From NCBI RefSeq assembly GCF_016900655.1, contig NZ_JACJKH010000013.1, forward strand, positions 1 through 64,000: a stretch of 64,000 nucleotides of DNA. The letters are read 5' to 3'. Source of the stretch: Drancourtella massiliensis (GTDB taxonomy: Bacteria > Bacillota > Clostridia > Lachnospirales > Lachnospiraceae). The number at the start of each line of letters is the position of its first letter. The first letter of the stretch is position 1. The notes under the pieces are model-generated. The model was not told the DNA's origin. It saw only the letters and a program-made list of their open reading frames with translations, and did no database searches. Shown in pieces: positions 48,066-62,933 of the stretch. A program made the translations under genes and the position numbers.

Positions 48066-49516
48066 CACATCGATCCTTCTTTTTTAACCACTGCAAGTAC
48101 TGTCTTCAGCAGAATCCGAAAGTCCATCCCCACACTCCAGTCTGTAATGTATTCCGTATCCAGCTTGACCACTTCCTCAAAATCCGTGATCTCGCTTCTT
48201 CCGCTTACCTGCCACATTCCGGTAATCCCCGGTTTGATAGCAAGTCTTGCACGATGGTGCAGTTCATATTTTTCCCACTCGTCCAGTGTCGGAGGTCTTG
48301 TCCCTACCAAAGACATATCCCCTTTCAGTACATTGAAAAACTGCGGAAATTCATCGATTGAGGTCACCCGGATCAGATTTCCGATCCCGGTCTTCTTCCT
48401 GCCGTCCGGCAGAATCTTATTTCCAATCACACGGGTATCAAAATCCAGCTTGAACATCATGCCGTCTTTCACCCGGTTTTCTTTCATCAATTCTTTCTTC
48501 CGTTCCTCTGCATCCAGATACATGCTTCGGAACTTATACATTTTAAATTTCTTTCCATTTTTTCCCACCCTTACCTGTGAGAAAAAAATCGGCCCCGGCG
48601 ACTGAATATAAATAGCCGGTGCAATAAAAACAAATAAGATTCCTGTCAGAATGCAACCCACCAGTCCGCCTGCAATATCCAGGCATCGTTTTAGAAATGC
48701 CTGCTTGTCTGTTGTATAATTGATGCTGGTAGTCAGTACCAAGTAATTTCCGATTTTCTCCACCAGCGGTTTCTTTCCCACCTTGTTGGTAGCCTGAGAA
48801 ATATTAAAATGTACAGTAACTCCTGTCTCCACCAGCTTGTTTATCAGGCTTTGAGGAAGCGTTTCGTTATCTCCTGGAATTAGGAGCACCTCATCAATCC
48901 ATTCCCGGCAGACATATTCCGGCGCGGTATCAACATTTGCCACCACCGGCAGTCCCCCGATATCTTCTCCTATGATATTCCGGTCTGCAATCACCAGTCC
49001 GGCCAGATTATACATTTCGTAATTATTATGCTTAATGCTCAGGACCACATCCAAAGCCGCCCGGTCGGTTGTCACGATCAGTAGTGATCGATCGCCTCCG
49101 GTTCGCATTTTTTTCCGAAGCATCCGCTTCCAAAGGAGTCGCACTCCATAGGTGAGAAACAGATAAATCACCCCAGTCAGATATAGAACGATTCTGGAAT
49201 AATTCTCTGCTTCCTGAATGGTAAACAGGTACAGGGTTGCAAACAGCAGTACCAGCACAACGTGTTTCAGAGTAACGGCAAACTCGATATAATATCCTCT
49301 TTTCAATACATTTTTCAATGTCTCAAAGAAAAACATCACCATCACATCTGCCAGTTCCAGAAAGATCGCCATATTGAGATATAACTGGTTTTCATATGGA
49401 CTGCCTGCCTGATGCCTAAACAGGTAGGCCATCATGAAAGCAGCCTGTAAGCAAATCAGATCCAGCACCAGAAAATCCCAGTGTTTTAACCATCCTTTTG
49501 AACTCTTTTTATACAT
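48065..49516 (-). CDS. Priming sugar-phosphate transferase (WbaP/CpsE type)
   Basis: 483 residues. Four N-terminal helices, a CoA-binding-like middle domain, a fifth helix (about 273-300), then the catalytic domain: KRCLDIAGG, FFSQVRVGKNGKKFKMYKFRSM, RVTSIDEFPQFFNVLKGDMSLVGTRPP and PGITGMWQVSGR. It transfers a sugar-1-phosphate to undecaprenyl phosphate, starting repeat-unit synthesis. GAGGAAGG precedes the ATG. Confidence 0.92.
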   Translation of the reverse strand: MYKKSSKGWLKHWDFLVLDLICLQAAFMMAYLFRHQAGSPYENQLYLNMAIFLELADVMVMFFFETLKNVLKRGYYIEFAVTLKHVVLVLLFATLYLFTIQEAENYSRIVLYLTGVIYLFLTYGVRLLWKRMLRKKMRTGGDRSLLIVTTDRAALDVVLSIKHNNYEMYNLAGLVIADRNIIGEDIGGLPVVANVDTAPEYVCREWIDEVLLIPGDNETLPQSLINKLVETGVTVHFNISQATNKVGKKPLVEKIGNYLVLTTSINYTTDKQAFLKRCLDIAGGLVGCILTGILFVFIAPAIYIQSPGPIFFSQVRVGKNGKKFKMYKFRSMYLDAEERKKELMKENRVKDGMMFKLDFDTRVIGNKILPDGRKKTGIGNLIRVTSIDEFPQFFNVLKGDMSLVGTRPPTLDEWEKYELHHRARLAIKPGITGMWQVSGRSEITDFEEVVKLDTEYITDWSVGMDFRILLKTVLAVVKKEGSM

Positions 49517-49560
49517 TCGTTCTGTACCTTCCTCTTTTCCTGTATCCTCTCGTCCTTATC

Positions 49561-50295
49561 CTAACGAAACCGAATCACATCGTTTCCTTCCAATATTCTT
49601 TTGGGGTTTTCCCTTAATAGCAATTCCGGACATGCACTTCCGTACCGTCTCGCCAGTAGATCTCTTAATGGTGCCAGACTCAACGTTCGGACATCTACCC
49701 GGTGGGCGTCGGTTGCTGCAAGCGATACCAATTGTCTGTCCAACATGTAGTCTGCTACATCCGCTGCTCCTTCTCCAAACCGCCCGAAGATGCTTCCTTT
49801 GTCCAACTGCAGTACCGCTCCCATCCTTGCCCATTCTTTTACGTGAGCAGGTACCCGCTGTACGCAGCGATATCGTTCTGGATGTGCTAGAATCGGAATA
49901 TACCCGGCATCCAGAAGATAGATCAGCATCCGGTAAATCTGCCATGCCGGAGCATCCAGCCGGACTTCCACCAATACATAACGGGTCCCGTTGATCGTCA
50001 GCAGTTCTCCCCGTTTCAACTTTCTTACCAGTTCCGCTCCGTCCAGAATCTCCATTCCTTCTACCAACCGTAATGGGATCCGTTCTTTTTCCAGAAGCTC
50101 CCGGAACTGCTCCAGCCTTCTGCGGTATACACGAACCATGTCCGCTGAATTTCTTCCCGGCAGATTTGCATGACAGGTAGCTGCCACAGTCTCAATACCG
50201 GATTCGACTGCTGTCTGCGCCATTTCGACTGCCTCTTCCCAGGACCTGGCTCCATCATCCAGCCCCGGGAGCAGATGGGCATGCAGATCAATCAT
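49561..50295 (-). CDS. cpsB: CpsB-type tyrosine phosphatase (PHP fold)
   Basis: 244 residues; MIDLHAHLLPGLDDGARSWE is the PHP metal site (HxH), and AHPERY and ATDAH follow. It should remove phosphate from the tyrosine tails of the two BY-kinases encoded just upstream and thereby control chain length and output. The start overlaps the kinase stop as ATGA. The usual TPHH/H run appears as ATCHANLPG, losing one His. Confidence 0.88.
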   Translation of the reverse strand: MIDLHAHLLPGLDDGARSWEEAVEMAQTAVESGIETVAATCHANLPGRNSADMVRVYRRRLEQFRELLEKERIPLRLVEGMEILDGAELVRKLKRGELLTINGTRYVLVEVRLDAPAWQIYRMLIYLLDAGYIPILAHPERYRCVQRVPAHVKEWARMGAVLQLDKGSIFGRFGEGAADVADYMLDRQLVSLAATDAHRVDVRTLSLAPLRDLLARRYGSACPELLLRENPKRILEGNDVIRFR

Positions 50296-51812
50296 GACTG
50301 TAGCTCCTCAGTATCATTTTTCTTCTTTGACTCCTGTTTCTTTCCATAGCCATAAGAGCCGTATCCATAGTAACCATATCCGTAACGTCCATAACCATAG
50401 TAGCCATATCCGCCCCTGTGTACCGGAACACCGTTGAACACGTATCCCAGAAGCGGTGCTTTGCTGTCTTCCAGCCCGGAAATACTGTCCAGAATCCGGC
50501 GTTTCTGCACCTGATCGTAACGGATCACATACAGGATGCCGTCCGACTGTTCCGCCAAAATGCTGGCGTCCTCAAACATTTCTACCGGCGGTGCATCCAG
50601 AAGAATCAGATCCCACTGTGCTTTCATTTCTTCCATGACCTCATGGAAACTGCTATGATTGAGGATCTGCTGAACACCTTTGACAGGTTTGTTTCCTCCA
50701 AGGAAATCTACTCCAGTCTCTTTCTCCCGATAAACTGCTTCTTTCAGCGTACATTTTCCTGCCACAACAGAAGCGAGTCCTCTTCCTTTTTCCTCCGTCA
50801 GATGCTTCCGGTCTGCCTGCTTGCGCAGGTCAGCGTCAATAAACAGAACTTTTACCCCATGGGATGCCGCTGCAATAGCAAGGTTATAAGCCAAAGTGGA
50901 CTTTCCTTCTCCCGGCATGGTGCTGGTCAGTACCAGTACTTTACCGCCCTTTTCCTCCAGTTCACGGGAGATCCGGATCTGCAGACTCTGAATATTCTCC
51001 CGAAATGCCTGAGGTGTCCGGTTATCCTGCATCTGAATCCATCTGGTAGTCTGTTTTTTCCGAAGCTTTCTGGAGACTTCCGGTATATTAGCAATACAGG
51101 AAAGGCTCATGACACTTTTCAACTCTTCCGGCTTCTGTACCGTTTTCTTGAAAAAAGCATACAGGCAGATAAGAAGAAATCCTGCTCCTGCCCCGTAGAC
51201 AGCACCTTTTTTGATCTGTCCCCGGTAACTTGGCCGGTTGTACGGCTCCGTCGGAGTCGACGGCTCGTCGATCATATTAAATTTCGTATCCCCGATGACA
51301 AACCGTGCCACGTCCGGATACACCTTAATAGCAGACTCCAAAATCGCTTTGGCATCTTCCGGGCTGTTGCTGGTTACGGTCATGGTAATCATATTCGAGT
51401 CGGAAACTGCCTGTGCGGAGATACTTCCGTTCACCGCATCCACTCCCAGATCTTCCTCAATCGCCTCTGTCAAAAGGCTGCTGCTTAAAATATAAGGAAA
51501 GGTTTTCGCCAGCTGTCCGGCTGTTGTCGTATCATAATAAAAGTTATAGGTACTGTTTTCTGAATCTGTAGATCCTCCGGTCAGCACCGTAAAGGTTGCA
51601 GAGGATTGATACATTGGTGTATAAAACAGGCTGGTAGCTCTGAGATAAAATGCCCCTGCCCCGACTACAGCCAGAAGAATGATCAGCCACCAGAAGCGGA
51701 GAATCCCCTGAATCACATTCCAGAACAGAGCCCCCAGATCGATCACGTCATCTTCATCAATCCTGCGGGACAGGTTCTGGTTATTCTTGCTATAAAGATC
51801 TCTCTCTGCCAT
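50292..51812 (-). CDS. BY-kinase with Wzz domain, copy 1 (Tyr-rich tail)
   Basis: 506 residues. Chain-length (Wzz) part with two helices (about 36-56 and 205-225), then the kinase domain: Walker A TSTMPGEGKST, Walker A' VLFIDADLRK and Walker B LILLDAPP. The C-terminal tail has many YG repeats (about 465-490, YGYYGYGRYGYG), the autophosphorylation cluster. Fused Wzc-type form in a Gram-positive, which more often splits CpsC and CpsD. GGAGG precedes the ATG, 2 bases after copy 2. Confidence 0.9.
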   Translation of the reverse strand: MAERDLYSKNNQNLSRRIDEDDVIDLGALFWNVIQGILRFWWLIILLAVVGAGAFYLRATSLFYTPMYQSSATFTVLTGGSTDSENSTYNFYYDTTTAGQLAKTFPYILSSSLLTEAIEEDLGVDAVNGSISAQAVSDSNMITMTVTSNSPEDAKAILESAIKVYPDVARFVIGDTKFNMIDEPSTPTEPYNRPSYRGQIKKGAVYGAGAGFLLICLYAFFKKTVQKPEELKSVMSLSCIANIPEVSRKLRKKQTTRWIQMQDNRTPQAFRENIQSLQIRISRELEEKGGKVLVLTSTMPGEGKSTLAYNLAIAAASHGVKVLFIDADLRKQADRKHLTEEKGRGLASVVAGKCTLKEAVYREKETGVDFLGGNKPVKGVQQILNHSSFHEVMEEMKAQWDLILLDAPPVEMFEDASILAEQSDGILYVIRYDQVQKRRILDSISGLEDSKAPLLGYVFNGVPVHRGGYGYYGYGRYGYGYYGYGSYGYGKKQESKKKNDTEELQS

Positions 51813-51814
51813 CC

Positions 51815-53230
51815 TTACACCTCCTCGCTGCCATCAGTTCTGCCATATCCGTAGTAGGAATGTTCCCGAAGAGAACTCCACAACTGTTCTTTCAAAAAGG
51901 CGTTTAAAATGAAACCTGTAAAGTCCACGCCTGCCTGGCGGATCGTATCCGAAGCATCGTTTGCCGCTCTCACATCCGTCCAGTCCTGGCGAACGATCAG
52001 TACTGCGTTATCTGCCATTTTCAGCATCAATTCCGCATCGCTGGATACGGACATTGGAGGCGTATCCAGAATAATGTAGTCCATCTTTTTCCGACCGGCG
52101 TCAATCAGCGCTTTCATTTCCATTGAATCCAGATACCGTGCTGCATTATGGATGCTCTTCTCCTGAAACACCGTATAGATCTTTTCCTTTTTCTCATAAA
52201 TTAGAACATCTTTAATCTCTGCCTTTTTGTCCAGATAATCCGATAGATACTTTCGGTTTTCTTCCTTTTTTTCAAACACTTTATAAAGAGCCGGCTTCTT
52301 CAAATCCACGTCAATCAGCATTACTCTCCGCCCTTTTTCCGCCAATGCAAGGGCCAGGTTTGCCGCCACAGAAGATTTTCCTTCATTTTCCGCCACACTG
52401 GTCACCATCAGTACCTTCTGGTCTCTCCTTCGCATATGATGGTCGATTCGGGTTGCTGTCTTACGTACTGCCTCTCCAAACGGCATACTGACCAGTTTGG
52501 AAGAGATCAAAATGGACTTGTTCAGTTTCCGCAACGCTCCCCGGACGGTTTTATTTTTCCGCTCATATGGAATCAGTTCCAGAATCCGTCCATCCAGATT
52601 TCGTTTGGCTCCTTCCCTTGTTTTCACTGTGAACCGCAGGATAGACAGTAAAACGATCAGCCCGCCGGATCCAACTGCTCCTGCCAGAATAGCAAGCTTC
52701 TGGTACCGGGAACTATTCATGGCATTGGAAGGTGCATACGGAACCGATGGTTCCTGTACGATCCGGAGCATCGCATTGGAGAAGAGATAGTCCGATACCT
52801 CATCATAATTCCGGATGGCAGACTGGATCACCTGATACGCCCTTCTAGGGTTTTCACTCGTTACCTGCAGCGTGATCAGGTTCGTTTCCTCAATCACGGT
52901 TGCCTGAATCGTTTCGTTGATGGAATCTTCACCGAGCTCTTCTGCAATCTTTTCTTTTAAGACATTACTGTCGAAGACTTCGCTGAAGACTCCGGCCATC
53001 TGGTTGGTCAAAGACAGAGAAGAATAGGCATTGCTGCCTCCCCTCGCACTGACTGCCATGGTGGCCTGGGCGGTAAATTCCGGCACATACAGGAAGCTCA
53101 TGACTCCGGTCACTGCAAACCACCCTGCTGCAGCCGCCAGAAGAATCACCCATATATTTTTCAGCAGGTCCCGGATGATACACAGGATGCTGATTTCATC
53201 TAGTCTGAATTCTCTTACTTCATTCTTCAT
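51815..53230 (-). CDS. BY-kinase with Wzz domain, copy 2 (short Tyr tail)
   Basis: 471 residues, same order as copy 1: Wzz with two helices, kinase domain with SVAENEGKSS, VMLIDVDLKKP and YIILDTPP. The tail has only YYGYGR. The two are paralogues but diverged. They may form mixed rings, or one may sense while the other regulates. The PHP phosphatase follows both. Confidence 0.88.
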   Translation of the reverse strand: MKNEVREFRLDEISILCIIRDLLKNIWVILLAAAAGWFAVTGVMSFLYVPEFTAQATMAVSARGGSNAYSSLSLTNQMAGVFSEVFDSNVLKEKIAEELGEDSINETIQATVIEETNLITLQVTSENPRRAYQVIQSAIRNYDEVSDYLFSNAMLRIVQEPSVPYAPSNAMNSSRYQKLAILAGAVGSGGLIVLLSILRFTVKTREGAKRNLDGRILELIPYERKNKTVRGALRKLNKSILISSKLVSMPFGEAVRKTATRIDHHMRRRDQKVLMVTSVAENEGKSSVAANLALALAEKGRRVMLIDVDLKKPALYKVFEKKEENRKYLSDYLDKKAEIKDVLIYEKKEKIYTVFQEKSIHNAARYLDSMEMKALIDAGRKKMDYIILDTPPMSVSSDAELMLKMADNAVLIVRQDWTDVRAANDASDTIRQAGVDFTGFILNAFLKEQLWSSLREHSYYGYGRTDGSEEV

Positions 53231-53245
53231 CTGGTATCTCTCCTT

Positions 53246-54064
53246 TTACTCCCGCACGATTACGGTCAGCCAGGTTTCCCCCCTGCCTGTATCGCCGTCT
53301 GTCTGATATTGAACCTGATAGGTTCCAGCTTCCCCGGTATTGACCTGAGAACTGATGGAAAGGCTGCCTGCATCCAGCTGGTTGCCGTCCATATCTTCCA
53401 CATAGTCCACATACTCTTCCGGGTGGAATTCTGCTCCTTTTTTTACGTACACAAGAGACTGTGTCAGGTGAATGTCTGTGCTGAGCTGAGATGCTTCCAC
53501 GATATGAACCGGAAGTTCCGCCTGTGTCGTGTCACCCAGACTGTTGGATACTTCCACCTGGATCGTATAGTCTCCGGCGGTCCGGTAATCGACATTACTC
53601 TCCAGCAGTTTCACCATAGAAGAAATGTCTCCGTCGATCTGATCCGTAGCATGGACATAGCTCCGTGCATTGTTCTCGGTTCCTACTGCAAAGACCAACG
53701 GTTGTGTCAACATAAATTTCGGAGCCTCATAATCAGTGAAACGGACTCTTCTGGTCAGAGTTGCCGCCTGATTGGAAGAATCAAAGACCACGTATGTCAG
53801 GTTGCATACTCCCGGCTCAATGAACTGGGAAAAGTTGCCTGCCATGATCTGGTCTGTCAGATCCCCGTCTTTTTCGTCCTCTGCTGTCAATCCTTCCAAC
53901 AGATCGCTTTCTTCATAAGAAGTGGAGACTTCCAGTTCTTCACGGTCGCTTGTGATGACCGGTCTGGTCGGATCTTCTGTTGCCTGTTCTTTAATCCGGG
54001 CCGCCCCGTAGATTCCAAGGCTTGCGATAAAAAGGATGATAACCAGTATTCTTATATATCTCAT
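53246..54064 (-). CDS. Anchored extracellular protein with Ig-like/DUF5011-type repeats
   Basis: 272 residues. One N-terminal helix (about 5-22), then about three beta-sandwich repeats with ED-x-DG-D/N-x-motifs (TAEDEKDGDLTDQIM; ATDQIDGDISSMV; YVEDMDGNQLD) typical of DUF5011/cadherin-like calcium or wall-associated modules. It lies between the exporter and the kinases. Possibly a surface or assembly factor for the polysaccharide or the exported product. Confidence 0.72.
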   Translation of the reverse strand: MRYIRILVIILFIASLGIYGAARIKEQATEDPTRPVITSDREELEVSTSYEESDLLEGLTAEDEKDGDLTDQIMAGNFSQFIEPGVCNLTYVVFDSSNQAATLTRRVRFTDYEAPKFMLTQPLVFAVGTENNARSYVHATDQIDGDISSMVKLLESNVDYRTAGDYTIQVEVSNSLGDTTQAELPVHIVEASQLSTDIHLTQSLVYVKKGAEFHPEEYVDYVEDMDGNQLDAGSLSISSQVNTGEAGTYQVQYQTDGDTGRGETWLTVIVRE

Positions 54065-54091: not shown

Positions 54092-55852
54092 TCAGAATGC
54101 ATCCAGAAATTCCTGAATGCCCTGTTCGTCTACCTGCGTAATCCCATGGTCCTGGATTTTATAGACCCGGTTACACATGGCAAATACGCTGGGCCGGTGT
54201 GCGGCCACAAGAATAGTCCGGTGCGGTTCTTTTTTAATGATTCTCCGAAGCACCCTCCGTTCTGTCGCCACATCCAGCGCACTGGTGGCTTCATCCAGAA
54301 TCATGACCGGGGCATCTGCAAGAAGCGCTCTTGCAATAGACAGTCTCTGTTTTTGCCCCTCGGAAAATCTTGTTCCTCGCTCCCGAACCTGTGTATTCAT
54401 TCCTTCTTCCAATTTTTCAACAAACTCCCAGGCGCACGCTGCCTCCAGAGCCTGCCTGATTTCTTCGTCTGTCGCTTCGGGTTTGACCATCCGCATGTTG
54501 TCCGCAATCGTCCCTGTAAAAAGGGTGTTGCTCTGAGGGATGTAGCTGAACAGGCATCGTGTAGCCGAAGATGCCTCCATTGCTGTCCGTCCTGGATTAC
54601 CAAGATAGACCCGGCCTTTTTGCGGATGGTACAGACCCAGAAGCAGGTTTAGCGTCGTCGTCTTGCCCTGCCCGGACGGCCCGATCAAGGCAACAATCTC
54701 ACCCGGATTGGCGGAAATATCCGCATTTTGGTAAATCCAGTTGTCTTCCTCATAGGCAAAGTCTACATTCTCCATGCGGACAAAGACGCCTTCTTCCTTG
54801 CTTCTTCGTTTCGCTTCTTCTGCTTCTTCTTTTTGTTCCATAGAATCCCTTGGCAGGCTGGTGACTTCCATGATTCGCTCTGCGCTGATTCCGGCCCGGA
54901 TCACCGTCGGCATGAGACTGATGATTCCGCTGAAAGATCCCCGGAGGGATCCTGCCATAGAGACAAACATCGTCATAGTCCCGTAACTGATGTCTCCTCT
55001 CCACAGCCGGTATGCTGCAAATCCATAACAGGCATAACCTACTGCCTGTCCTACCAGGGAGGTCACGATAGTTGTCCACTGCTGAAACTTGTTCTGGAGC
55101 AGGGCCACATCCACGGTTTCTTTCTGGATTTTGTAAAATTTTTCCATAACCCGGTCCACCATGCCGAAGGCTTTGATGAACTGCAGGTTCTGGAAGGTTT
55201 CCTGGTCAAAGACCGTCCGGTCGCTGGCTACTTCCTGATTATCTCTCTGGAAGTCCCGCATCTTTTTCATGGAATACCGGGAAGTCAGGAAGGAAACCGG
55301 AGCTCCTGCCATAGCAATCACTGCCATGATGGGATCATTTTTCACCACGATTACAAAGGCTCCTCCAAAACTGATCAGAGTCGTCACCACGTTAGGCAGG
55401 AAGGTGAGAATCGTATTCGCCACCATACTGGCATCTCCATTCACCCGGTAAAGGAGATCACCGGAACGATATTTTGACAAAGATTCCCAGTTCGTCTGCA
55501 GAACCTGCTCATAAATATCACTGCGGATTTCGTTAGTGACTTTGAGACGAACCCTGAGAGAAAGCCGGGTCTTGACGGCATTAATAAAAATCTGCGAAAC
55601 GCCGACACCCACATATACTACAGCCACCTGTACGATTTCTGCAGAATTCACTCCTGTCACAGCATCTACCAGATCCCGGCTGACCACGGAAGTCCCCAGA
55701 GATAACACCGATCCGGAAGCTCCCAGAAGGATATATACCCCAATTAGAAACCAGTACTTCCGGACATAGGCATACATCCAAAGGAGCTCCCCGATCAGCT
55801 TTTTCAACTTGCCTTCTTTGATTTTCTGAATGATATGTTTGATCGAACTCAT
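54092..55852 (-). CDS. ABC exporter, fused permease and ATPase
   Basis: About 586 residues: six helices (about 30-320) and an ATPase with GPSGQGKTT, signature RFSEGQKQRLS, DEATSALD and the H-loop VAAHRPS. LolA/MsbA-like half transporter, no peptidase C39 domain. Tight in the cassette with the radical SAM enzyme and kinase; a role in exporting a modified peptide is likely, though lipid or polysaccharide export cannot be excluded. I use the ATG at 55852; a TTG at 55879 would overlap the kinase end. Confidence 0.82.
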   Translation of the reverse strand: MSSIKHIIQKIKEGKLKKLIGELLWMYAYVRKYWFLIGVYILLGASGSVLSLGTSVVSRDLVDAVTGVNSAEIVQVAVVYVGVGVSQIFINAVKTRLSLRVRLKVTNEIRSDIYEQVLQTNWESLSKYRSGDLLYRVNGDASMVANTILTFLPNVVTTLISFGGAFVIVVKNDPIMAVIAMAGAPVSFLTSRYSMKKMRDFQRDNQEVASDRTVFDQETFQNLQFIKAFGMVDRVMEKFYKIQKETVDVALLQNKFQQWTTIVTSLVGQAVGYACYGFAAYRLWRGDISYGTMTMFVSMAGSLRGSFSGIISLMPTVIRAGISAERIMEVTSLPRDSMEQKEEAEEAKRRSKEEGVFVRMENVDFAYEEDNWIYQNADISANPGEIVALIGPSGQGKTTTLNLLLGLYHPQKGRVYLGNPGRTAMEASSATRCLFSYIPQSNTLFTGTIADNMRMVKPEATDEEIRQALEAACAWEFVEKLEEGMNTQVRERGTRFSEGQKQRLSIARALLADAPVMILDEATSALDVATERRVLRRIIKKEPHRTILVAAHRPSVFAMCNRVYKIQDHGITQVDEQGIQEFLDAF

Positions 55853-55862
55853 GGCAATTTGA

Positions 55863-56654
55863 TCAATTCTCCCTGCCAAAAATAGTTTTCTCGGTTAGGT
55901 CTACCGCCTCTTCATCCGGACGGCAGGACAGTTCGTAAACCGGAAGTTTGGAAAGCAGATGATCCAGTGTTTCCAGACAAAGCTCCATACCATTCTCCAG
56001 CCAACGGGGATAGAAGACACTGTTGGAAACAGCAGTTACTTTCTCAAATCCCTCTAACTTGCGAATGGAGTTTTCTGGAGCCTGTTTGAGAATAACCAGC
56101 GCCTCTATCGGTACACTCGTATTCTCGCAATAAGGAGAAGAGCCGTGCCACGGAGTTCCCCAACCGAGAAAATTTTCTTCTGTTTCCTGCACAAAGACGA
56201 TATCGCCGTTGATAATCAGGGCGTTCCGGTACTGATTCCAGAGTTCCGCCTGGGTGGTCTTTCCTATACCGGAAGGACCGAGGAACATCAGGCCGTGACC
56301 CTGATAGTCAATGAGGGAACTGTGAAACTGGATCATGTGATGCTGGGAAGCATGAGCGTAAAAGGCTTGGATAAGGAACGCAGTAATACATTCTCTATTC
56401 TGTAAGGGATAAAAAGAAATTTTTTTCCAATTATCCTCTACAAACATGAATTCATTCCTTTCAAAAAAGGTAGAGTGCCTATCATCCATATTCAATTTTT
56501 CTATCCCGTAAAATATTTCAGCAGTTTTCGCCTTACAAATTGTTAAATGATATTGTTGTAAAGATATTGTTGTAAATTTCTTCCACTCTTCGTCAACAAT
56601 TTCTTTTTCTGCTACAATATCAATTCCTGCTATGCAGTAATTCTGTCTAAACAT
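55863..56654 (-). CDS. HPrK/PEPCK-like kinase of the radical SAM cassette
   Basis: 263 residues. Walker A GPSGIGKTT at about 128-136, INGDIVFVQE as the second metal site and GWGTPWHGSSPY nearby; this resembles HPr kinase C-domains and the small PEPCK-like kinases in RiPP clusters. Substrate likely a peptide or sugar, unknown. The start ATG lies within the end of the small protein gene (25-base overlap), so their translation is coupled. The N-terminal third is AT-rich compared with the rest, as is the gene before it. Confidence 0.7.
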   Translation of the reverse strand: MFRQNYCIAGIDIVAEKEIVDEEWKKFTTISLQQYHLTICKAKTAEIFYGIEKLNMDDRHSTFFERNEFMFVEDNWKKISFYPLQNRECITAFLIQAFYAHASQHHMIQFHSSLIDYQGHGLMFLGPSGIGKTTQAELWNQYRNALIINGDIVFVQETEENFLGWGTPWHGSSPYCENTSVPIEALVILKQAPENSIRKLEGFEKVTAVSNSVFYPRWLENGMELCLETLDHLLSKLPVYELSCRPDEEAVDLTEKTIFGREN

Positions 56655-57019
56655 CCTCTATCTTCCAAATTAGCACCATATTGCCCTACGAATGCAGATT
56701 TTTTAAAAAAGTCCCAAGCCCCTAACATTTCATTTAGATCATCAGCATGTCCCGCATTAACATGCTCCCTTAATCCTTGTGCATCTGCTGAATGTTCCAC
56801 TCCTTGCTCACATTTCCCATCATTTTTTTCCAAATATGCCGGCCAAGTTTCAGATAATGGACAATTTGGATCGTTAAAATACCAACCTGTACCTGTAAAT
56901 CCATCTCCATTCCAATATAACCAATATCCTGTTTCCTCAGCTCCACCACCAGACGTTTCCAAGGTCATAATTCCATTGTTTACTGCTTTAGCATCTACTT
57001 CTATATAAATCTGTCCCAT
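56630..57019 (-). CDS. Small Gly/Trp/Tyr-rich protein, possible peptide substrate of the cassette
   Basis: About 129 residues, no recognised family. N-terminal MGQIYIEVDAKAV, then a Gly/Trp/Tyr/Thr stretch (about 26-50; YWLYWNGDGFTG), three Cys in the whole, and a helical acidic end. ATG at 57019 has AAAGGAG 7 bases upstream; the ATG at 57025 is too close. It overlaps the radical SAM gene by 19 bases and the kinase by 25. Its position between modifying enzyme and kinase fits a precursor or carrier; a structural protein or fragment is also possible. Codon use is more AT-rich than both flanks. Confidence 0.5.
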   Translation of the reverse strand: MGQIYIEVDAKAVNNGIMTLETSGGGAEETGYWLYWNGDGFTGTGWYFNDPNCPLSETWPAYLEKNDGKCEQGVEHSADAQGLREHVNAGHADDLNEMLGAWDFFKKSAFVGQYGANLEDRGCLDRITA

Positions 57020-58089
57020 ACCCATTCTCCTTTCTCTTCATCAAACCATTTCTTAATCTTCTCACAAAACTCTTCTGTTACCTTGTGCGGGCTCCCGCAC
57101 TCTGCATTCAGCATTCCGGCACACTTGAAGCATACCTTCTGCACTTTGCAGGTCTTACATTCCTCTGGCCAGTCCAGTTCTTCTTCATACCGGATCAGTT
57201 TCTTCCATGCCTCCTGAAATGCCTGCTCTCTTATTTTGATATGTGGTTCATTCATAAAGCTGCAGAACCGCATTTCTCCGTCCCATGTAATCCAGTACCC
57301 CAGCCGGTAGTCCTTACAATAGTTACACGGCTTCCGTTCGATATTGACCGGTGCTTCTTTTAATCGGTACTGAATCTCTTTTTTCTTTTGTTCATCCAGC
57401 TTTTCCTGTACCCGGACGTCCTTTGCTTCACTGTCCGCACCCCGAACTGAGGACTTAACTCCTGCTGTCATCACCCATGGGAGCTGATGACAGTACGCAT
57501 AAAACGCCATCCGTTTGACATCTTCCTCATTCTGTCGGATGATGGTACTGACCAGTTGGATAGGGATCTTCATTTCTTTCAGTGTCCGGATCCCCTGATC
57601 GACTTTCGTAAATCCATTCGGCACCTGGCAGACCTGTTCATAGATCTCATCATTGGATCCATACAGAGTGATCTTCACACCTTTTGGTGGATAGTCTTCC
57701 AAAAGCTTTTGAAATTTTCCTTCGATCATGGAAGCGTTCGTCTGAAGGGTGATGAAAAATCCCATCTGCGTCAATTCTTTCCAGATCGTTTCAAACTCCG
57801 GATGCATCAGCGGTTCGCCTCCGGTGATGCAAAGCCAGGTCGTCCCGGCTTCTTTCGCCTCCCTTGCCACCCGGATCCATTCTTTTGCAGTCAGTTCTTT
57901 CCCATATTTATGGATCTCCGATGGCTTCAGGTGAACATAACACATCCGGCAGTTGAAATTGCATCTTGGAGTCAACTCAAAGGTTCCGGAAATCGGAATT
58001 GCATCTGCGAATGCCTTTTCCCAGACTGCTTTATAGAAGGGATCCAGCCATTCCATCCGCCGGCAGGCCGGCTCAAATTCATAGCTCAT
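57001..58089 (-). CDS. Radical SAM/SPASM enzyme
   Basis: 362 residues. Radical SAM site CNFNCRMC (about 43-50), GGEPLMHPEF, then SPASM-like Cys: CNYC, FCSF, CKTCKVQKVCFKC, C-x-SPH, FCEK. The N-terminal MEWLDPFYKAVWE is distinctive. This class modifies peptide side chains (thioether or C-C links, as in sactipeptides and PQQ biosynthesis), usually with a PqqD-type recognition domain, which is the next gene upstream. GGAAAGG precedes the ATG. Confidence 0.85.
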   Translation of the reverse strand: MSYEFEPACRRMEWLDPFYKAVWEKAFADAIPISGTFELTPRCNFNCRMCYVHLKPSEIHKYGKELTAKEWIRVAREAKEAGTTWLCITGGEPLMHPEFETIWKELTQMGFFITLQTNASMIEGKFQKLLEDYPPKGVKITLYGSNDEIYEQVCQVPNGFTKVDQGIRTLKEMKIPIQLVSTIIRQNEEDVKRMAFYAYCHQLPWVMTAGVKSSVRGADSEAKDVRVQEKLDEQKKKEIQYRLKEAPVNIERKPCNYCKDYRLGYWITWDGEMRFCSFMNEPHIKIREQAFQEAWKKLIRYEEELDWPEECKTCKVQKVCFKCAGMLNAECGSPHKVTEEFCEKIKKWFDEEKGEWVWDRFI

Positions 58090-58090
58090 C

Positions 58091-58411
58091 TTAATCCTTT
58101 CCTTTCGGCATTCTTACAAAGACCCGTCCACGTGTGATCCCATCATCCAGAATGTTATTGTCCGCCAGCGTCTTTAAAAATTTCTCGATGTCCGCTGCCG
58201 CCTGCTCTTCCGTCACTCCGCTGTAGTGCTCCATGATTTTTGCCACCAGATCTTCCTTTTCGAATTCGTGGTCTTTCATGTAGTCCCACAGATACGCGCC
58301 CGAAGACGAGATGTAGACAATGGACGTCACCTCCTGCACCCGTTTCCCGGTGGGCACTACAACATACTGGCCTGCTACTTCCCGCAGGATCAGTCCATCC
58401 TTCAATTTCAT
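58091..58411 (-). CDS. PqqD-family protein (peptide recognition element)
   Basis: 106 residues from the ATG at 58411, 9 bases after AAGGAG. It has PqqD-like beta/winged-helix features: LKDGLILREVAGQYVVVP, ISSSGAYLWDYMK, then a helical tail. PqqD proteins bind leader peptides for the radical SAM partner. Open frame extends upstream to 58531 without support. It ends 1 base before the radical SAM gene. Confidence 0.83.
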   Translation of the reverse strand: MKLKDGLILREVAGQYVVVPTGKRVQEVTSIVYISSSGAYLWDYMKDHEFEKEDLVAKIMEHYSGVTEEQAAADIEKFLKTLADNNILDDGITRGRVFVRMPKGKD

Positions 58412-58541
58412 AGGCATCCACTCCTTTTTGGAATTTCCCTTGCTGCCTTCCCCAGATGTCGTTCCTTTCCTGTTTGTTCTTGTTTTGTCATATGTTTTGA
58501 TGCTGTCGCATATACATGCTATAGAAAACATTGTGCAGGTT

Positions 58542-58994
58542 TTACCGATTCAGTTCCTTATTAAGGGCAATCATCTTCAGCATCTGTCTGAAATCCTGAT
58601 CGTTCTGAATCTGTATCCACGGGGTATAACCCAGGAATGCGAAAGGAATGTGTCTGGCAAGCCGGATAAATACGGTCCCTGCACTTTCCTTCTGATCAGA
58701 CAGGTCGATTCGGAACATCTTCCGTTCCAGATCCCAGATAATCAGGCTGCCCTTCATATCCTTTCTGATATCATGGATTTCCGGCGTGATGGTCTCTCCG
58801 GTTTTCTCGTCATGGACTTCCGGATAGACGAGAACCATGGTGTCATAGGGAATCGTCCGGCATACCAGCCCCTTCTCCGGGTCTCTTTCCCAGACCAGCA
58901 ATTCCTTCTGGCCAAGCCTTACTTTTTCCGGTTTATATACCAGATTTCTGCTTCTTTTCTCCATCTCGCCATCCCGCCTGCTTTTCATTTCCAT
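58542..58994 (-). CDS. Uncharacterised first gene of the switch-controlled operon
   Basis: 150 residues, charged, no signal peptide or helices; a mixed beta part (about 15-110, YDTMVLVYPEVHDEKTGE, KGSLIIWDLERKMFRIDL) and a helical end. I do not recognise it. The ATG at 58994 is 8 bases from the left inverted repeat and has no good ribosome binding site; the ATG at 58964 is an alternative. Its place next to the invertible segment makes it the first gene transcribed after inversion. Confidence 0.6.
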   Translation of the reverse strand: MEMKSRRDGEMEKRSRNLVYKPEKVRLGQKELLVWERDPEKGLVCRTIPYDTMVLVYPEVHDEKTGETITPEIHDIRKDMKGSLIIWDLERKMFRIDLSDQKESAGTVFIRLARHIPFAFLGYTPWIQIQNDQDFRQMLKMIALNKELNR

Positions 58995-59002
58995 GCATCC
59001 GT

Positions 59003-59029
59003 TACCACAGAATGGTTATTCCGTGGTAA
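59003..59029 (+). repeat. Left inverted repeat of invertible segment
   Basis: 27 bases, perfect inverted copy of 59252-59278. The unit is itself a near palindrome: arms TACCAC and GTGGTA, then GAAT and ATTC, around GGTT. Such 11-12-base arms with a short spacer are the layout of a tyrosine recombinase core site. Confidence 0.88.
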
Positions 59030-59045
59030 CTGCCCTGCAAAACGG

Positions 59046-59082
59046 CAAAAAATAAGGGACTGTGCCATTTTGTCACAGCCCC
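59046..59082 (-). terminator. Terminator inside the invertible segment
   Basis: CTGTG/CACAG and GGG/CCC pairs with one A-C mismatch (59056-59064 with 59074-59082), 9-base loop; on the minus strand followed by TTATTTTTTG. In this orientation it would stop minus-strand read-through from the recombinase gene into the operon. Confidence 0.65.
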
Positions 59083-59183
59083 GGAATGTCGATCTGTCCT
59101 TCTTTTTCAAAAAAATAGCGCAACATGCCTACGCCCGCTTTCCTGGAAAAAGCAAACGGGCTTCTTTGCATGCAAAAAAACTA

Positions 59184-59212
59184 TTGACTTCTCTTCCCTA
59201 CAATATTAAAAT
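59184..59212 (+). promoter_or_regulatory. Promoter inside the invertible segment, pointing right
   Basis: -35 TTGACT (59184-59189), 17-base spacer, -10 TAAAAT (59207-59212). It points toward the recombinase 3' end, that is antisense to it and away from the operon. After inversion it would lie at about 59069-59097 on the minus strand, about 70 bases before the first gene. A GCCCG/CGGGC hairpin (59133-59161) precedes it. Confidence 0.6.
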
Positions 59213-59251
59213 GAAACATGCTAGAGAAAAAATGTTTTGTTATGTATTTTT

Positions 59252-59278
59252 TTACCACGGAATAACCATTCTGTGGTA
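59252..59278 (-). repeat. Right inverted repeat of invertible segment
   Basis: Perfect reverse complement of 59003-59029. It ends 4 bases before the recombinase stop codon. The enclosed segment is 222 bases long (59030-59251). Confidence 0.88.
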
Positions 59279-59282
59279 TTTT

Positions 59283-60125
59283 TTATACAATTAATCTCAT
59301 TTTTTTGATAATGCGTTCCTGTTTGCGGATGCCTTCCGCCACATAAATCCTGGTGGTCTCAATGGAGGAGTGTCCGAGGATGTCTGCAAGGAGAGCGAGA
59401 TTTTTTTCTACCGCGTAAAAGCAGCGGGCGAACAGATGCCTCAGGTTGTGTGGAAAGACCTTCGTTTTGTCTACCCCGGCCTCTTCACAGATGGCTTTCA
59501 TTTCATGGCAGATATTGCTCCGGTCCAGCGGTTTTCCGGTTCTTGTCTGAAAGATCGGTCCACTCTGAATGCCCTGATTGTTTACGTAGGTCCGCAGTTT
59601 CTTTTTCAGCTTCTTTGGCAGCAAAATGGTTCGGTCCTTCCCTTTCAGGTGAATCTGTACCCGGCCGCATTTCAGCGCCTCTACGGTGATGAATCTCAGT
59701 TCACTGACCCGGATTCCGGTGCCGCAGATCGTCAGAATCACATAGTAAAGCCGAAGATTCGGGCGGTTCCTTGCTGCCATCAGCAGACGTCTGTACTCCT
59801 GCTCGGAGAGTTCTCTTTCTTCATCGATAAATGCCTGTCTCTGAATCTTCAGGAGCTTTACCGTGCAGGTTTGACAGCCTGTAAATTCCAGATAGGAATT
59901 GACCGCAGAGAGCTTCGCGTTTACGGTCTTTGGCTGGTAGGATCGAATCAGCCTCTCCCGGTATTCGAGGATTTTCTGTTTTGAGACTTTTGCGCCGCCA
60001 AGAAAAGCGGATAAAATCTGAAGCTCTCTCATATACTTCTCAACGGTAGCCCGGCTTTTTTCTTCCTGAATCAGGAAGATTTCATACTCTTTCAATGACT
60101 TTTGCGTAATACGTTTCCCTTCCAT
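59283..60125 (-). CDS. Tyrosine recombinase (site-specific integrase/invertase)
   Basis: 280 residues. SAM-like N-terminal domain (about 1-95), catalytic part with Arg in GTGIRVSEL, HNLRHLFAR (H-x2-R), LGHSSIETTRIY (His and nucleophile Tyr). Complete XerC/D-like set without phage- or Tn-specific extra domains. ATG at 60125 follows GGAAGGAA; frames back to 60278 lack support and read through a hairpin. Adjacent inverted repeats indicate it inverts the neighbouring segment; stand-alone integrases upstream of capsule loci do this in other gut bacteria. Confidence 0.87.
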   Translation of the reverse strand: MEGKRITQKSLKEYEIFLIQEEKSRATVEKYMRELQILSAFLGGAKVSKQKILEYRERLIRSYQPKTVNAKLSAVNSYLEFTGCQTCTVKLLKIQRQAFIDEERELSEQEYRRLLMAARNRPNLRLYYVILTICGTGIRVSELRFITVEALKCGRVQIHLKGKDRTILLPKKLKKKLRTYVNNQGIQSGPIFQTRTGKPLDRSNICHEMKAICEEAGVDKTKVFPHNLRHLFARCFYAVEKNLALLADILGHSSIETTRIYVAEGIRKQERIIKKMRLIV

Positions 60126-60212
60126 AAGTATTCCTTCCTTTTGTGTTTTCTCTTTAGTATCTTCAGCTCTGCCTTCCACTAATCCTGCCTTTGTAAATTT
60201 TGCTGTATATAA

Positions 60213-60252
60213 AAAAAGACTGAATCTATCTCTGTTTTGGTTCAGTCTTTTT
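60213..60252. terminator. Strong bidirectional hairpin between recombinase and DUF1576 genes
   Basis: AAAAAGACTGAA (60213-60224) with its complement (60241-60252), 16-base loop, T runs on both sides. It lies between divergent starts, so on the minus side it is in the recombinase leader and could attenuate recombinase expression. Confidence 0.65.
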
Positions 60253-60335
60253 GCATTTTTTTTATTTTTCTTTACCATATGGCTGATTTTCGATATAATA
60301 AAGTTAATAATTACATCGAAGAAAGGATGCTCTAC

Positions 60336-61610
60336 ATGAAAAAAACGCTTTCGCGCCGCCAGAGTTATCTTCTGCTGGCAGTTTTTCCCGCCTATTTTAT
60401 CATTGTGGGACTATTTATGCAGCCACCTTCGGAAATTCTTTCCGGTCTTTATTCGATTATCCGTGAGCCTGACTTCCTGATTACAGACTATTTTGTGATT
60501 GGAGGCATTGGGGCTGCTTTTCTGAATGCCGGCCTGATTACGCTGCTTTTACTTCTTGTTCTTTACCTTCTGCATATGGAAATCGATGGTCATACTATCA
60601 CCTCCTGCTGCCTGATCTTTGGCTTTTCCTTGTTTGGAAAAAATGTTGTCAATATCTGGACGATTCTCCTGGGTGTCTATTTGTATGCTCACTATCACAA
60701 GACTTCCATCCGGAATTATCTTTATGTCGGTCTTTACGGAACGAGCCTTTCCCCGATTATTACCCAGGTTATGCAGTTCGAAGGATTATCATTGCCTGTC
60801 CGGGTCTTTTTAAGCTTTGCTATCGGTATCAGCATTGGTTTTGTTCTGCCTCCATTGTCTACCCATGTTCACTATGCTCATCAAGGTTACTCTTTGTATA
60901 ACGTCGGTTTTTCTTCCGGTATCATTGCGACAGTCATCATCTCTTTATTCAAATCCTTTGGAATTGAAGCAGAATCCCGGCTGATCTGGCATACAGGAAG
61001 TAATCTGGAGTTTTCCATCATTTTGGGGGCACTGTTCCTGATCATGATTTTATCTGCCTTTCTTCTGGACCGGAAGCAGCTGTTTGCTTCCTATAAAAAG
61101 ATCCTGAAATGCAGCGGAATCTCAGGAACTGATTATCTGAAACAGGAAGGGAAAGCGCCTGTTCTTCTCAATATGGGAATCAACGGATTTTTCGCCATGT
61201 TTCTTGTGCTGATTTTGGGCGGAGATCTCAACGGTCCGACCATCGGCGGTATTTTCACGATCGTCGGATTTTCTGCCACCGGGAAGCACCTCTTTAATAT
61301 TGCCCCGATCATGATCGGCGTTATTTTGGCCAGTGTAACAAAAGAGTGGAATATCAACGATCCGTCACCGATGCTTGCTCTTCTGTTTTCTACGACTCTT
61401 GCCCCGATCGCCGGGGAATTCGGGATTGTAGCCGGTCTCCTCGCCGGATTTCTTCAGTCTTCTGTAGCATTAAATGTTGGAATTCTTTATGATAGTATGA
61501 ATTTGTATAATAATGGATTTGCCGGAGGAATTGTAGCAATTTTCATGGTTCCGGTGATCCGTTCCATCCGCTCCAGAAGAGCGCGCGCAAAAGGCGACCT
61601 CTCTCTTTAG
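60336..61610 (+). CDS. DUF1576-family membrane protein
   Basis: 424 residues, about 12 helices in two similar halves (GKNVVNIWTILLGVYLYA and GKHLFNIAPIMIGVILAS; NVGFSSGIIATVI and NNGFAGGIVAIFM), an internal repeat typical of the family. Function unknown, transporter-like. The ATG at 60336 is 8 bases after GAAAGGA. Confidence 0.82.
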   Translation: MKKTLSRRQSYLLLAVFPAYFIIVGLFMQPPSEILSGLYSIIREPDFLITDYFVIGGIGAAFLNAGLITLLLLLVLYLLHMEIDGHTITSCCLIFGFSLFGKNVVNIWTILLGVYLYAHYHKTSIRNYLYVGLYGTSLSPIITQVMQFEGLSLPVRVFLSFAIGISIGFVLPPLSTHVHYAHQGYSLYNVGFSSGIIATVIISLFKSFGIEAESRLIWHTGSNLEFSIILGALFLIMILSAFLLDRKQLFASYKKILKCSGISGTDYLKQEGKAPVLLNMGINGFFAMFLVLILGGDLNGPTIGGIFTIVGFSATGKHLFNIAPIMIGVILASVTKEWNINDPSPMLALLFSTTLAPIAGEFGIVAGLLAGFLQSSVALNVGILYDSMNLYNNGFAGGIVAIFMVPVIRSIRSRRARAKGDLSL

Positions 61611-61620
61611 AGGCCGCCTT
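61591..61620. terminator. Convergent terminator, DUF1576 and PgsA-like genes
   Basis: AAGGCG-A-CCTCT pairs with AGAGG-C-CGCCTT (one mismatch), 6-base loop. It overlaps the end of the DUF1576 gene and abuts the phosphatidyltransferase stop. Confidence 0.6.
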
Positions 61621-61622
61621 GC

Positions 61623-62183
61623 TTACCATTCCTTATGCATTTTTTGAAATTCCGGTATGTAGAGAATAAGTGTCAGAAACATGATCACCATCTCAGCGAG
61701 AATAAAGAAATCTGCTGTTTGTCTGGGGATCCAGGGAAATACCACCAGCGCCAGAAGCAGTAGAAACAAGGTGGCAGTACATACTTTTCCAAACCATTTT
61801 GCCCCGTTTAGCTTCTGCCCGTGTTTCAGATTCCATGCTCCCATCACAGCCATAAATCCCTCCTTTATGATCATCAGAAGGATCAGGTAACGCATCAGGG
61901 GGTAACGGAATGCGAGACAGACAGCCACTGCCGCATGGGTCAGTTTGTCCGCCACAGGATCCAGAAATTTCCCGAATTCGGTAATCATATTGAAATGTCT
62001 TGCAACTTTCCCGTCCAGGAAATCAGTGATGGTGGAGATCAGGAGAATCGCCGCCGCCTGATATTCCTCCTGAATGGAATCCGCACGTAAGTATACAATA
62101 CAAAATACCGGAATCAGCAGGATGCGGAAATATCCCATGCAGTTCGGTATCGATAACAGTTCTTTTTTTGAAAAATGCTTCAT
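61623..62183 (-). CDS. CDP-alcohol phosphatidyltransferase (PgsA-like)
   Basis: 186 residues with about five helices and the full family motif DG-x2-AR-x8-G-x3-D-x3-D (DGKVARHFNMITEFGKFLDP then VAD). Most likely phosphatidylglycerophosphate synthase, though cardiolipin synthase-like use of the same fold is possible. ATG at 62183 follows GGAGGG; longer frame to 62264 is unsupported. Divergent from the YkgJ gene. Confidence 0.85.
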   Translation of the reverse strand: MKHFSKKELLSIPNCMGYFRILLIPVFCIVYLRADSIQEEYQAAAILLISTITDFLDGKVARHFNMITEFGKFLDPVADKLTHAAVAVCLAFRYPLMRYLILLMIIKEGFMAVMGAWNLKHGQKLNGAKWFGKVCTATLFLLLLALVVFPWIPRQTADFFILAEMVIMFLTLILYIPEFQKMHKEW

Positions 62184-62267
62184 ATTCCCTCCGTTCTGGT
62201 TTGACAGGCCCCCTCTTCTTTGTTTAAAATAGTGATAATACAATGACAGGCAACAAGGAGGCATTTT

Positions 62268-62933
62268 ATGCTGCGAAATATTGATCTAAATGAAATCTCT
62301 GACGGGAACCTCTATACTTCCAATGATCTGGTACGTGCCGACTGCGGCGGATGCCGCGGATGCTCGGACTGCTGTCAGGGAATGGGGGATTCCATCATCC
62401 TTGACCCTTATGACATGGACCAGCTGTACCGTGGTACCGGTCTGAAGCCGGAGGAGCTTCTCCTTCGCGCTGCTGATCTTTCCGTTGTGGACGGCATCAT
62501 TCTCCCGCATCTGAAGATGACCGGAGAACGGGACTGCTGCCCGTTTCTGTCCGGGGAGGGCCGATGCCGGATTCACGCATTCCGTCCCGGCTTCTGCCGG
62601 CTCTTTCCTCTTGGAAGACTGTATGAGGATGGTTCTTTTTCCTACTTTCTTCAGACGAAAGAATGTAAAAAGACCCACCGTTCCAAAATCCGGATAAAAA
62701 AGTGGCTTGACATCCCGGATCTGCCTCGCTATGAAGACTATGTGTGCAGCTGGCACTACCTTCTGATGGATCTGCAGGCTCATATCGAGCGGGCAGGAGA
62801 TGAATCCTATCAGAAACAGGTATCCATGTATGTGCTTCAGAACTTCTACCTGACCCCGTACCCGGAAGAAGGCTTTTATGAAGCGTTCCAGGAGCGGTAC
62901 GAGACGTGTAAGAAGCTCTTTCACCTGGCATAA
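62268..62933 (+). CDS. YkgJ-family cysteine-cluster protein
   Basis: 221 residues. N-terminal CGGCRGCSDCCQGMGDSI and CPFLSGEGRCRIHAFRPGFCRLFP are the conserved Cys of PF03692 metal-binding proteins; the remainder is helical. Function unknown; iron or zinc binding is inferred from the family. Starts at ATG 62268 with AAGGAGG upstream. Confidence 0.83.
   Translation: MLRNIDLNEISDGNLYTSNDLVRADCGGCRGCSDCCQGMGDSIILDPYDMDQLYRGTGLKPEELLLRAADLSVVDGIILPHLKMTGERDCCPFLSGEGRCRIHAFRPGFCRLFPLGRLYEDGSFSYFLQTKECKKTHRSKIRIKKWLDIPDLPRYEDYVCSWHYLLMDLQAHIERAGDESYQKQVSMYVLQNFYLTPYPEEGFYEAFQERYETCKKLFHLA

Follow-up and report, generated by a model that had tools for sequence, protein, structure and literature searches.

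In Bacteroides, a single recombinase, Mpi, acts on many distant promoters, whose inversion turns surface polysaccharides ON or OFF. In E. coli, the fimE gene runs toward the fimS switch. According to the available part of PMC2784873, this invertible promoter drives a surface operon, a Rho-dependent, phase-variable terminator lies downstream of fimE in the OFF state, and the fimE mRNA, which is longer and more stable in the ON state, drives cells back to OFF. The same part of the text describes the cwpV switch of C. difficile, which has 21-bp imperfect arms, a 195-bp spacer, a terminator in OFF and a promoter located outside the inverted segment; the clostridial XerC/D-type tyrosine recombinase that acts on it, RecV, was found by testing seven candidate genes and not by its position beside the switch. 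The part of PMC11892184 (2025) available to us reports inverton group 139, which comprises 33 invertons, 32 of them from Clostridia, is linked to tyrosine-recombinase (invertase) group 35, and changes orientation at the read level. From the coordinates of two of its members, the arms work out at 26 and 14 bp and the spacers at 205 and 227 bp.

We analysed a stretch of 64,000 nucleotides (hereafter the window) from a gut bacterium of the genus Sellimonas, in which a short segment bounded by inverted repeats separates the gene of a tyrosine recombinase from an operon with radical SAM and exopolysaccharide genes. We consider it very probable, judging from this sequence and its relatives, that the locus is a phase-variable ON/OFF promoter switch, in which the adjacent recombinase inverts a 222-bp spacer and so controls the radical-SAM/exopolysaccharide operon. 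The elements of the predicted switch are, from left to right:

59003 to 59029, no strand: operon-side arm, a putative recombination site and near-palindrome (repeat search; one of only two such sites in the genome)
59030 to 59251, no strand: putative invertible spacer, 222 bp (a 76% identical spacer, in the same orientation, is found in locus L023 of the sister species)
59056 to 59082, minus strand: predicted intrinsic terminator, candidate stop for recombinase read-through into the operon in OFF (folding; score 32; kept in L023)
59133 to 59161, minus strand: second leftward hairpin, a weaker terminator candidate with no T-run directly behind it (folding; overlaps the scan site 59135-59117)
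59184 to 59212, plus strand: predicted sigma-70-type promoter TTGACT-17-TAAAAT, pointing toward the recombinase, the OFF orientation, with 39 nt to the exit arm (sequence; identical hexamers in L023)
59252 to 59278, no strand: recombinase-side arm (repeat search; the other of the two genome sites)
59253 to 59284, plus strand: recombinase-side arm hairpin followed by TTTTTT, candidate one-way terminator for the OFF transcript (scan, folding, family asymmetry)
59283 to 60125, minus strand: Xer-like tyrosine recombinase of 280 aa, counted from the ATG at 60125 (PF00589; NCBIfam; PDB relative)

The initial annotation, made from the letters alone, had described two 27-base perfect reverse complements enclosing 222 bases, the right copy ending 4 bases before the stop of a tyrosine recombinase with all catalytic residues, and each part of this description was confirmed. 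The arms pair at 100%; the right arm ends at 59278, and the open reading frame covers 59283-60278. Within the window, two places match the arm sequence with no more than 3 mismatches (0 expected from 100 shuffles), and a 26-base degenerate version, again with up to 3 mismatches, finds only these two sites in the whole 3.27-Mb genome. In 20 block-shuffled windows, the longest perfect inverted pair within 1 kb is 15 bp: a 27-bp inverted pair beside a tyrosine recombinase is far beyond chance. Each arm is also a near-palindrome in its own right, a feature absent from the initial annotation and expected of the core site of a tyrosine recombinase. The consensus of the arms, drawn by eye, is ACCACAKAAT-N4-ATTMTGTGGT. 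The arm sequence is found nowhere else in the genome, unlike the situation in Bacteroides, where many distant promoters are recognised by Mpi; what the two have in common is that promoter inversion would set a surface polysaccharide ON or OFF.

The recombinase matches PF00589 at 3.8e-24 in Pfam, and its best relative in the PDB is 4a8e, a XerC-like enzyme (E 1.5e-21). It scores below the NCBIfam cut-offs of the XerC, XerD and tyrosine-type invertase models, so that it is Xer-like, yet none of these. The residues R, K, H-x-x-R, H and Y, which we take to be the catalytic ones, can be read by eye in its translation. The locus thus combines the features of an inverton: short inverted repeats that bound a promoter (recognised by its sequence) and an adjacent tyrosine recombinase with these residues. 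A paralogous recombinase is encoded in the same genome (G000:C85, L025, 2161-3766); it has its own 25-bp repeat pair and a 203-bp spacer, and is also in the OFF orientation.

The promoter in the spacer matches the consensus at 10 of 12 bases. The leftward hairpin 59082-59056 (-16.2 kcal/mol, z -2.8), which is followed by TTATTTTTT, was missed by our simple terminator scan, which gave 59135-59117 on that strand. A terminator-like hairpin is kept at the matching place in the sister locus L023 (-22.1 kcal/mol, z -3.1), though its sequence has changed. Both elements had been annotated within the segment, as a -35/-10 promoter pointing right and a terminator acting leftward, and they are borne out as predictions by sequence and folding respectively; so is the OFF anatomy, with the promoter directed away from the operon and the terminator facing it. 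Mirroring the coordinates indicates that, after inversion, 39 nt would separate the -10 element from the left arm, and about 75 nt would separate it from the first ATG of the operon.

As in the fimS/fimE system, a terminator is predicted behind the recombinase in OFF only, from sequence and folding for OFF and from arithmetic for ON. The fimE terminator is Rho-dependent (PMC2784873, available part), whereas those of the Sellimonas locus are a predicted hairpin and a predicted arm terminator. The Sellimonas recombinase also has its stop 4 bp from the arm, and the likeness concerns the layout. The locus shares with the C. difficile cwpV/RecV system a clostridial tyrosine recombinase of Xer-like type, a comparable arrangement of arms and spacer, and a terminator predicted in OFF, but its consensus promoter lies inside the spacer and not outside; an additional promoter may still exist outside the segment.

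Relatives of the recombinase (E at most 1e-45) are found in 81 of 397 Lachnospiraceae genomes and, among 291 genomes sampled across the class, in 49; since at most six candidates were scored per genome in the Lachnospiraceae survey, copy numbers there are lower bounds. A first set was made of 120 regions from the Lachnospiraceae matches, together with further loci, the 15 lowest-scoring kinds of rows being left out. Inverted repeats are present 3' of the stop in 98 of the 109 recombinases followed by at least 700 nt of 3' sequence (a single locus, L140/L156, enters this count twice) and missing, by our rule, in the other 11; at the same thresholds, such repeats are seen behind 4 of 378 control genes, in which a shorter stretch was scanned than for the recombinases. 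The modules were counted after setting aside L038 (contig end) and L040 (duplicate of L069) and dropping one of the identical spacers L140/L156, which brings 101 modules to 100, including four loci from metagenome assemblies (L027-L030, labelled Oscillospiraceae or Clostridiales).

The promoter is OFF in 65 of these 100 unique spacers, ON in 11 and undecided in 24 (4.8 OFF and 3.6 ON in shuffles). The position filter of the promoter caller was chosen after the near-constant distance between promoter and exit arm had been noticed; without it (threshold 9.0), 57 OFF and 11 ON are called, against 6.2 and 5.0 in shuffles. For the second set, the best 40 class-wide relatives outside Lachnospiraceae, own genome excluded, the predictions were written down beforehand. 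Repeats are present in 35 of the 40, and three of the five recombinases that lack them are at most 134 nt from a contig end. The orientation is OFF in 21 of the 35, ON in 11 and undecided in 3 (2.0 and 2.2 in block shuffles); the spacer of L192 (OFF) is identical to that of L063 of the first set and hence not independent, and without it the counts are 20, 11 and 3 of 34. Both orientations are therefore found within the recombinase family, and the excess of OFF holds in the first set (65 vs 11) but falls short of significance in the second (21 vs 11, p 0.11).

A few modules depart from the common pattern. In L153, the recombination site seems to be in tandem on each side near the recombinase, with an arm of 89 nt. 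L208 has a 353-bp spacer with a near-consensus promoter out of each end, and is possibly a two-way selector instead of an ON/OFF switch. The spacers of L062, L063 and L192 are 99.5-100% identical in three genomes, one of which (G807) is labelled as another family, which means either a recent horizontal transfer or a misplaced genome.

An internal terminator was expected throughout the family, but none above threshold was found in 40 of 57 OFF, 9 of 11 ON and 28 of 32 undecided spacers; one at threshold is present in 23 of 100 spacers, and in 12 of these it is confined to the sense direction (a count made without shuffle control). The recombinase-side arm provides another candidate, which the initial annotation had missed: on the plus strand of the window, TACCACGG...GTGGTA is followed by TTTTTT. 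We counted T-runs, defined as at least 6 T in 8, outside the arm and read in the direction of the OFF transcript. In the first set, they follow 51 of 100 recombinase-side exits vs 3 of 100 operon-side exits, and they are seen at 2 of 100 and 7 of 100 of the two inner arm edges and at 29 of 378 matched places behind control genes. The same asymmetry is found in the second set (23 of 35 vs 3 of 35). The T-run is absent in about half of the first-set modules. Where it is present, the recombinase-side arm and its T-run look like a one-way terminator for the OFF transcript.

The comparison of related modules bears on whether these segments are inverted. The homologous spacers of L108 and L113 are inverted between fixed flanks (80% identity over 173 nt, E 3e-37), and so are those of L221 and L224 (82% over 202 nt, E 5e-54); the spacers of L224 and L226 are inverted too (81% over 191 nt), and further, shorter pairs exist. 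Of the 24 pairs of matching spacers with at least one member in the second set, 8 are inverted. On the tree of the recombinases, the ON label requires 10 changes for 11 ON rows, which implies that flips recur; orientation shows no strong clustering, and sister modules are found in opposite states (L108 and L113; L125 vs L121 and L126). In 20 of 125 cases, the contig breaks off within 300 nt on the 3' side of the recombinase stop, vs 4 of 125 on the 5' side (p 0.0015), and some of them end exactly at or inside an arm. Contig ends at arms are indirect evidence: they would be expected if both orientations had been present in the population that was assembled, but may also arise in other ways, for instance from repeated sites. 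The contig of the paralogous recombinase in the sister species (L024, G002:C167) ends exactly at the arm, as it would at a fork in the assembly graph. Altogether, these comparisons show that the family of the window's recombinase flips such segments, from which we infer that the window's own copy can be flipped. The OFF-state phase switch of the initial annotation is supported to that extent, by its OFF anatomy and by the family.

In the mechanism that we propose, the tyrosine recombinase would bind the two palindromic 27-bp arms and invert the 222-bp spacer. In OFF, the sequenced state, the internal promoter would fire toward the recombinase, and the arm hairpin with its T6 would halt the transcript ahead of antisense entry into the recombinase gene, while the hairpin 59082-59056 would stop the recombinase transcripts short of the operon. 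In ON, 39 nt would separate the promoter from the operon-side arm, where no T-run is present, and the transcript would exit freely; the promoter would drive the gene of 150 aa, the cassette that encodes the PqqD-like, radical SAM, HPr-kinase-like and ABC proteins, and the exopolysaccharide genes, and the internal terminator would face the operon no more. Of this picture, the comparison and the sequence establish the arms, the promoter-like and terminator-like sequences, the recombinase, the conservation of these elements and inversion in relatives; the activity of the window's copy, the function of its promoter and terminators, and the phenotype are inferred.

It could be argued that the switch is real in origin but now locked, the Sellimonas recombinase no longer flipping the spacer and the operon being silent or otherwise promoted. 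The locus is indeed OFF in both Sellimonas species that we compared, the arms of the sister locus (L023/L026, CAJFMZ010000087.1) differing from those of the window by a single end base, and the window's whole clade of 12 is OFF; at the ON rate of the family, the latter result would occur by chance with a probability of 0.15, if rows are taken as independent though two are identical. However, both species have an intact recombinase frame and perfectly pairing arms despite the divergence of spacer and gene (81% over matched DNA and 78% for protein, window vs sister), perfect arms suggest ongoing exchange, and OFF outnumbers ON in the first set anyway, so that we consider a locked switch unlikely. 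In a third genome of the genus, the spacer is absent and no recombinase is close (best E 2e-9).

The conservation of a strong leftward terminator-like hairpin in the sister species, in spite of its changed sequence, would also be expected if the locus were a terminator switch of the cwpV type, for which there is a precedent (PMC2784873, available part): the operon's promoter would lie in the recombinase gene or before it, inversion would mainly add or remove the terminator, and the internal promoter would be minor. We find this rather improbable, since in the family the conserved element is the promoter, whose sequence is close to consensus and whose distance from the exit arm is fixed; internal terminators occur in a minority of spacers. 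As for the idea that the repeats are integration or excision sites of a mobile element, or ordinary hairpins at gene ends, and that there is no promoter switch, it has in its favour that the recombinase belongs to the Xer/integrase superfamily; it is nevertheless highly improbable, considering that the arms are inverted and not direct, that a promoter lies between them, that homologous spacers are found inverted, and that so few control genes (4 of 378) have such repeats.

The operon that it would control runs leftward from the switch, and includes the following genes:

58542 to 58994, minus strand: first operon gene, 150 aa, no Pfam match (close relative in L023)
58091 to 58531, minus strand: PqqD-like peptide chaperone (PF05402, 2.4e-12)
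57001 to 58089, minus strand: radical SAM protein (PF04055, 1.2e-24)
56630 to 57025, minus strand: small protein, candidate radical-SAM substrate, with a W...G-x-T-G-x-G-W motif (by eye)
55863 to 56654, minus strand: HPr-kinase-like protein (PF07475, 7.3e-5, 22.8 bits, below the curated cut-off of 33.3)
54092 to 55879, minus strand: ABC exporter (profile match)
48065 to 54064, minus strand: Ig-like protein, two Wzz/tyrosine-kinase-like proteins, CpsB-type protein and exopolysaccharide sugar transferase (profile matches)

Glycosyltransferase-like genes, recognised by eye, lie beyond the sugar transferase. The initial annotation held that a gene 8 bases to the left of the arm opens a radical SAM/exopolysaccharide operon. 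The distance is right for the most upstream ATG, at 58994, a start at 58964 being also possible, and the nature of the operon agrees with the Pfam matches (PF05402, PF04055) and with the exopolysaccharide genes downstream. Distant relatives of the 150-aa gene are found behind the switches of L123 and L025 and near the recombinase L132, where no repeats were detected. The window also encodes, in the exopolysaccharide operon, a protein of 807 aa (43496-45919) that looks, by eye, like a fusion of a glycosyltransferase and a radical SAM/SPASM domain.

The coupling of a switch to a radical SAM cassette, which had been called unusual, is so in our comparison too: of up to 128 recombinase matches (many with short flanks), just the two Sellimonas loci have a radical SAM homologue behind the switch. 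When 84 of 85 downstream proteins, one per module and at most the first 450 residues, were scanned with Pfam (L062, a near-copy of L063, was left out), no family had more than 6 members, among the 25 of 61 families listed, and Radical_SAM was matched by one protein, which must be the Sellimonas one included. The cassette exists in four other genomes (G030, G435, G455 and G445) of 295 searched within the taxonomic order, in which a homologous radical SAM gene stands amid PqqD, small-protein and HPr-kinase-like neighbours, with an ABC exporter, Ig-like and Wzz genes also present in G030, G435 and G445. No recombinase of the window's family was found in the five stretches around the cassette homologues, an absence that is weak for G435, where the contig (L187) ends 2.6 kb upstream. 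Matches to Wzz, CpsB or sugar transferase occur downstream in 13 loci beyond the two Sellimonas ones, again among up to 128 recombinase matches of which many have short flanks, and polysaccharide is therefore a recurrent, not a universal, target.

The small proteins beside homologous radical SAM genes (L187, L188, L189 and L190) have, by eye, a motif like W...G-[FLVI]-T-G-x-[GS]-W, which is weaker in L189 and L190. Together with these counterparts, the protein encoded at 56630-57025 may be an exported substrate that is modified by the radical SAM enzyme. Between the window and the sister locus L026, identity falls from about 0.9 to 0.4-0.67 over 1.1 kb (56450-57500), and is 0.7-0.95 beyond; the block, which extends from the C-terminal part of the radical SAM protein through the small protein to the N-terminus of the HPr-kinase-like protein, resembles a specificity cassette that has been exchanged.

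Other assignments were tried and rejected. Regarding a mobile element, the plasmid collection gave no match, viral contigs contain no exact copy of the 24-base arm core, and they yielded one weak relative (28% identity). No Rfam match at the gathering score is found in 56000-62500, which leaves out a known RNA element. Regarding a defence function, the radical SAM protein was the only one of six proteins to match in PADLOC, to viperin models.

The window's family is likely to be group 139 with invertase group 35 (PMC11892184, available part), judging by geometry: in both, a tyrosine recombinase lies near a clostridial inverton. Since group 139 is reported for Clostridia, this kind of switch is already known, and the Sellimonas switch is a further member, with an unusual radical-SAM/exopolysaccharide cassette. 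For group 139, that part of the text describes no arm terminator, internal terminators or radical-SAM target such as we see in the window and its family. Within the limited literature that we looked at, we met neither the arm terminator, nor the OFF predominance of the first set, nor the radical-SAM target. The accessible portion of PMC10939037 makes no mention of Firmicutes, Lachnospir, tyrosine recombinase, terminator or Sellimonas, and the terms capsul, polysaccharide, recombinase, phase variation and inver are all absent from the genome paper on S. intestinalis (PMC8116674).

We tentatively suggest, as a possibility rather than an expectation, that these modules form a clostridial family of self-insulated switches. 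The recombinase-side arm would double as a one-way intrinsic terminator, with one exit blocked and one open, and orientation-dependent termination behind the recombinase would feed back on its level, high in ON and low in OFF; in Sellimonas, the switch would govern a radical-SAM-modified exported peptide together with exopolysaccharide. The predominance of OFF would follow from this feedback, if true. A fimE-like feedback at the Sellimonas switch itself is speculation.

The family offers a clean comparative case, in which a large and little-named group of recombinases is usually accompanied by a promoter switch of its own, whose anatomy lets ON and OFF be told apart in assembled sequence. The arm terminator would be a simple design rule. 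As for the target in Sellimonas, it suggests that a modified peptide and a sugar coat are made, perhaps, in only a subpopulation of the cells.
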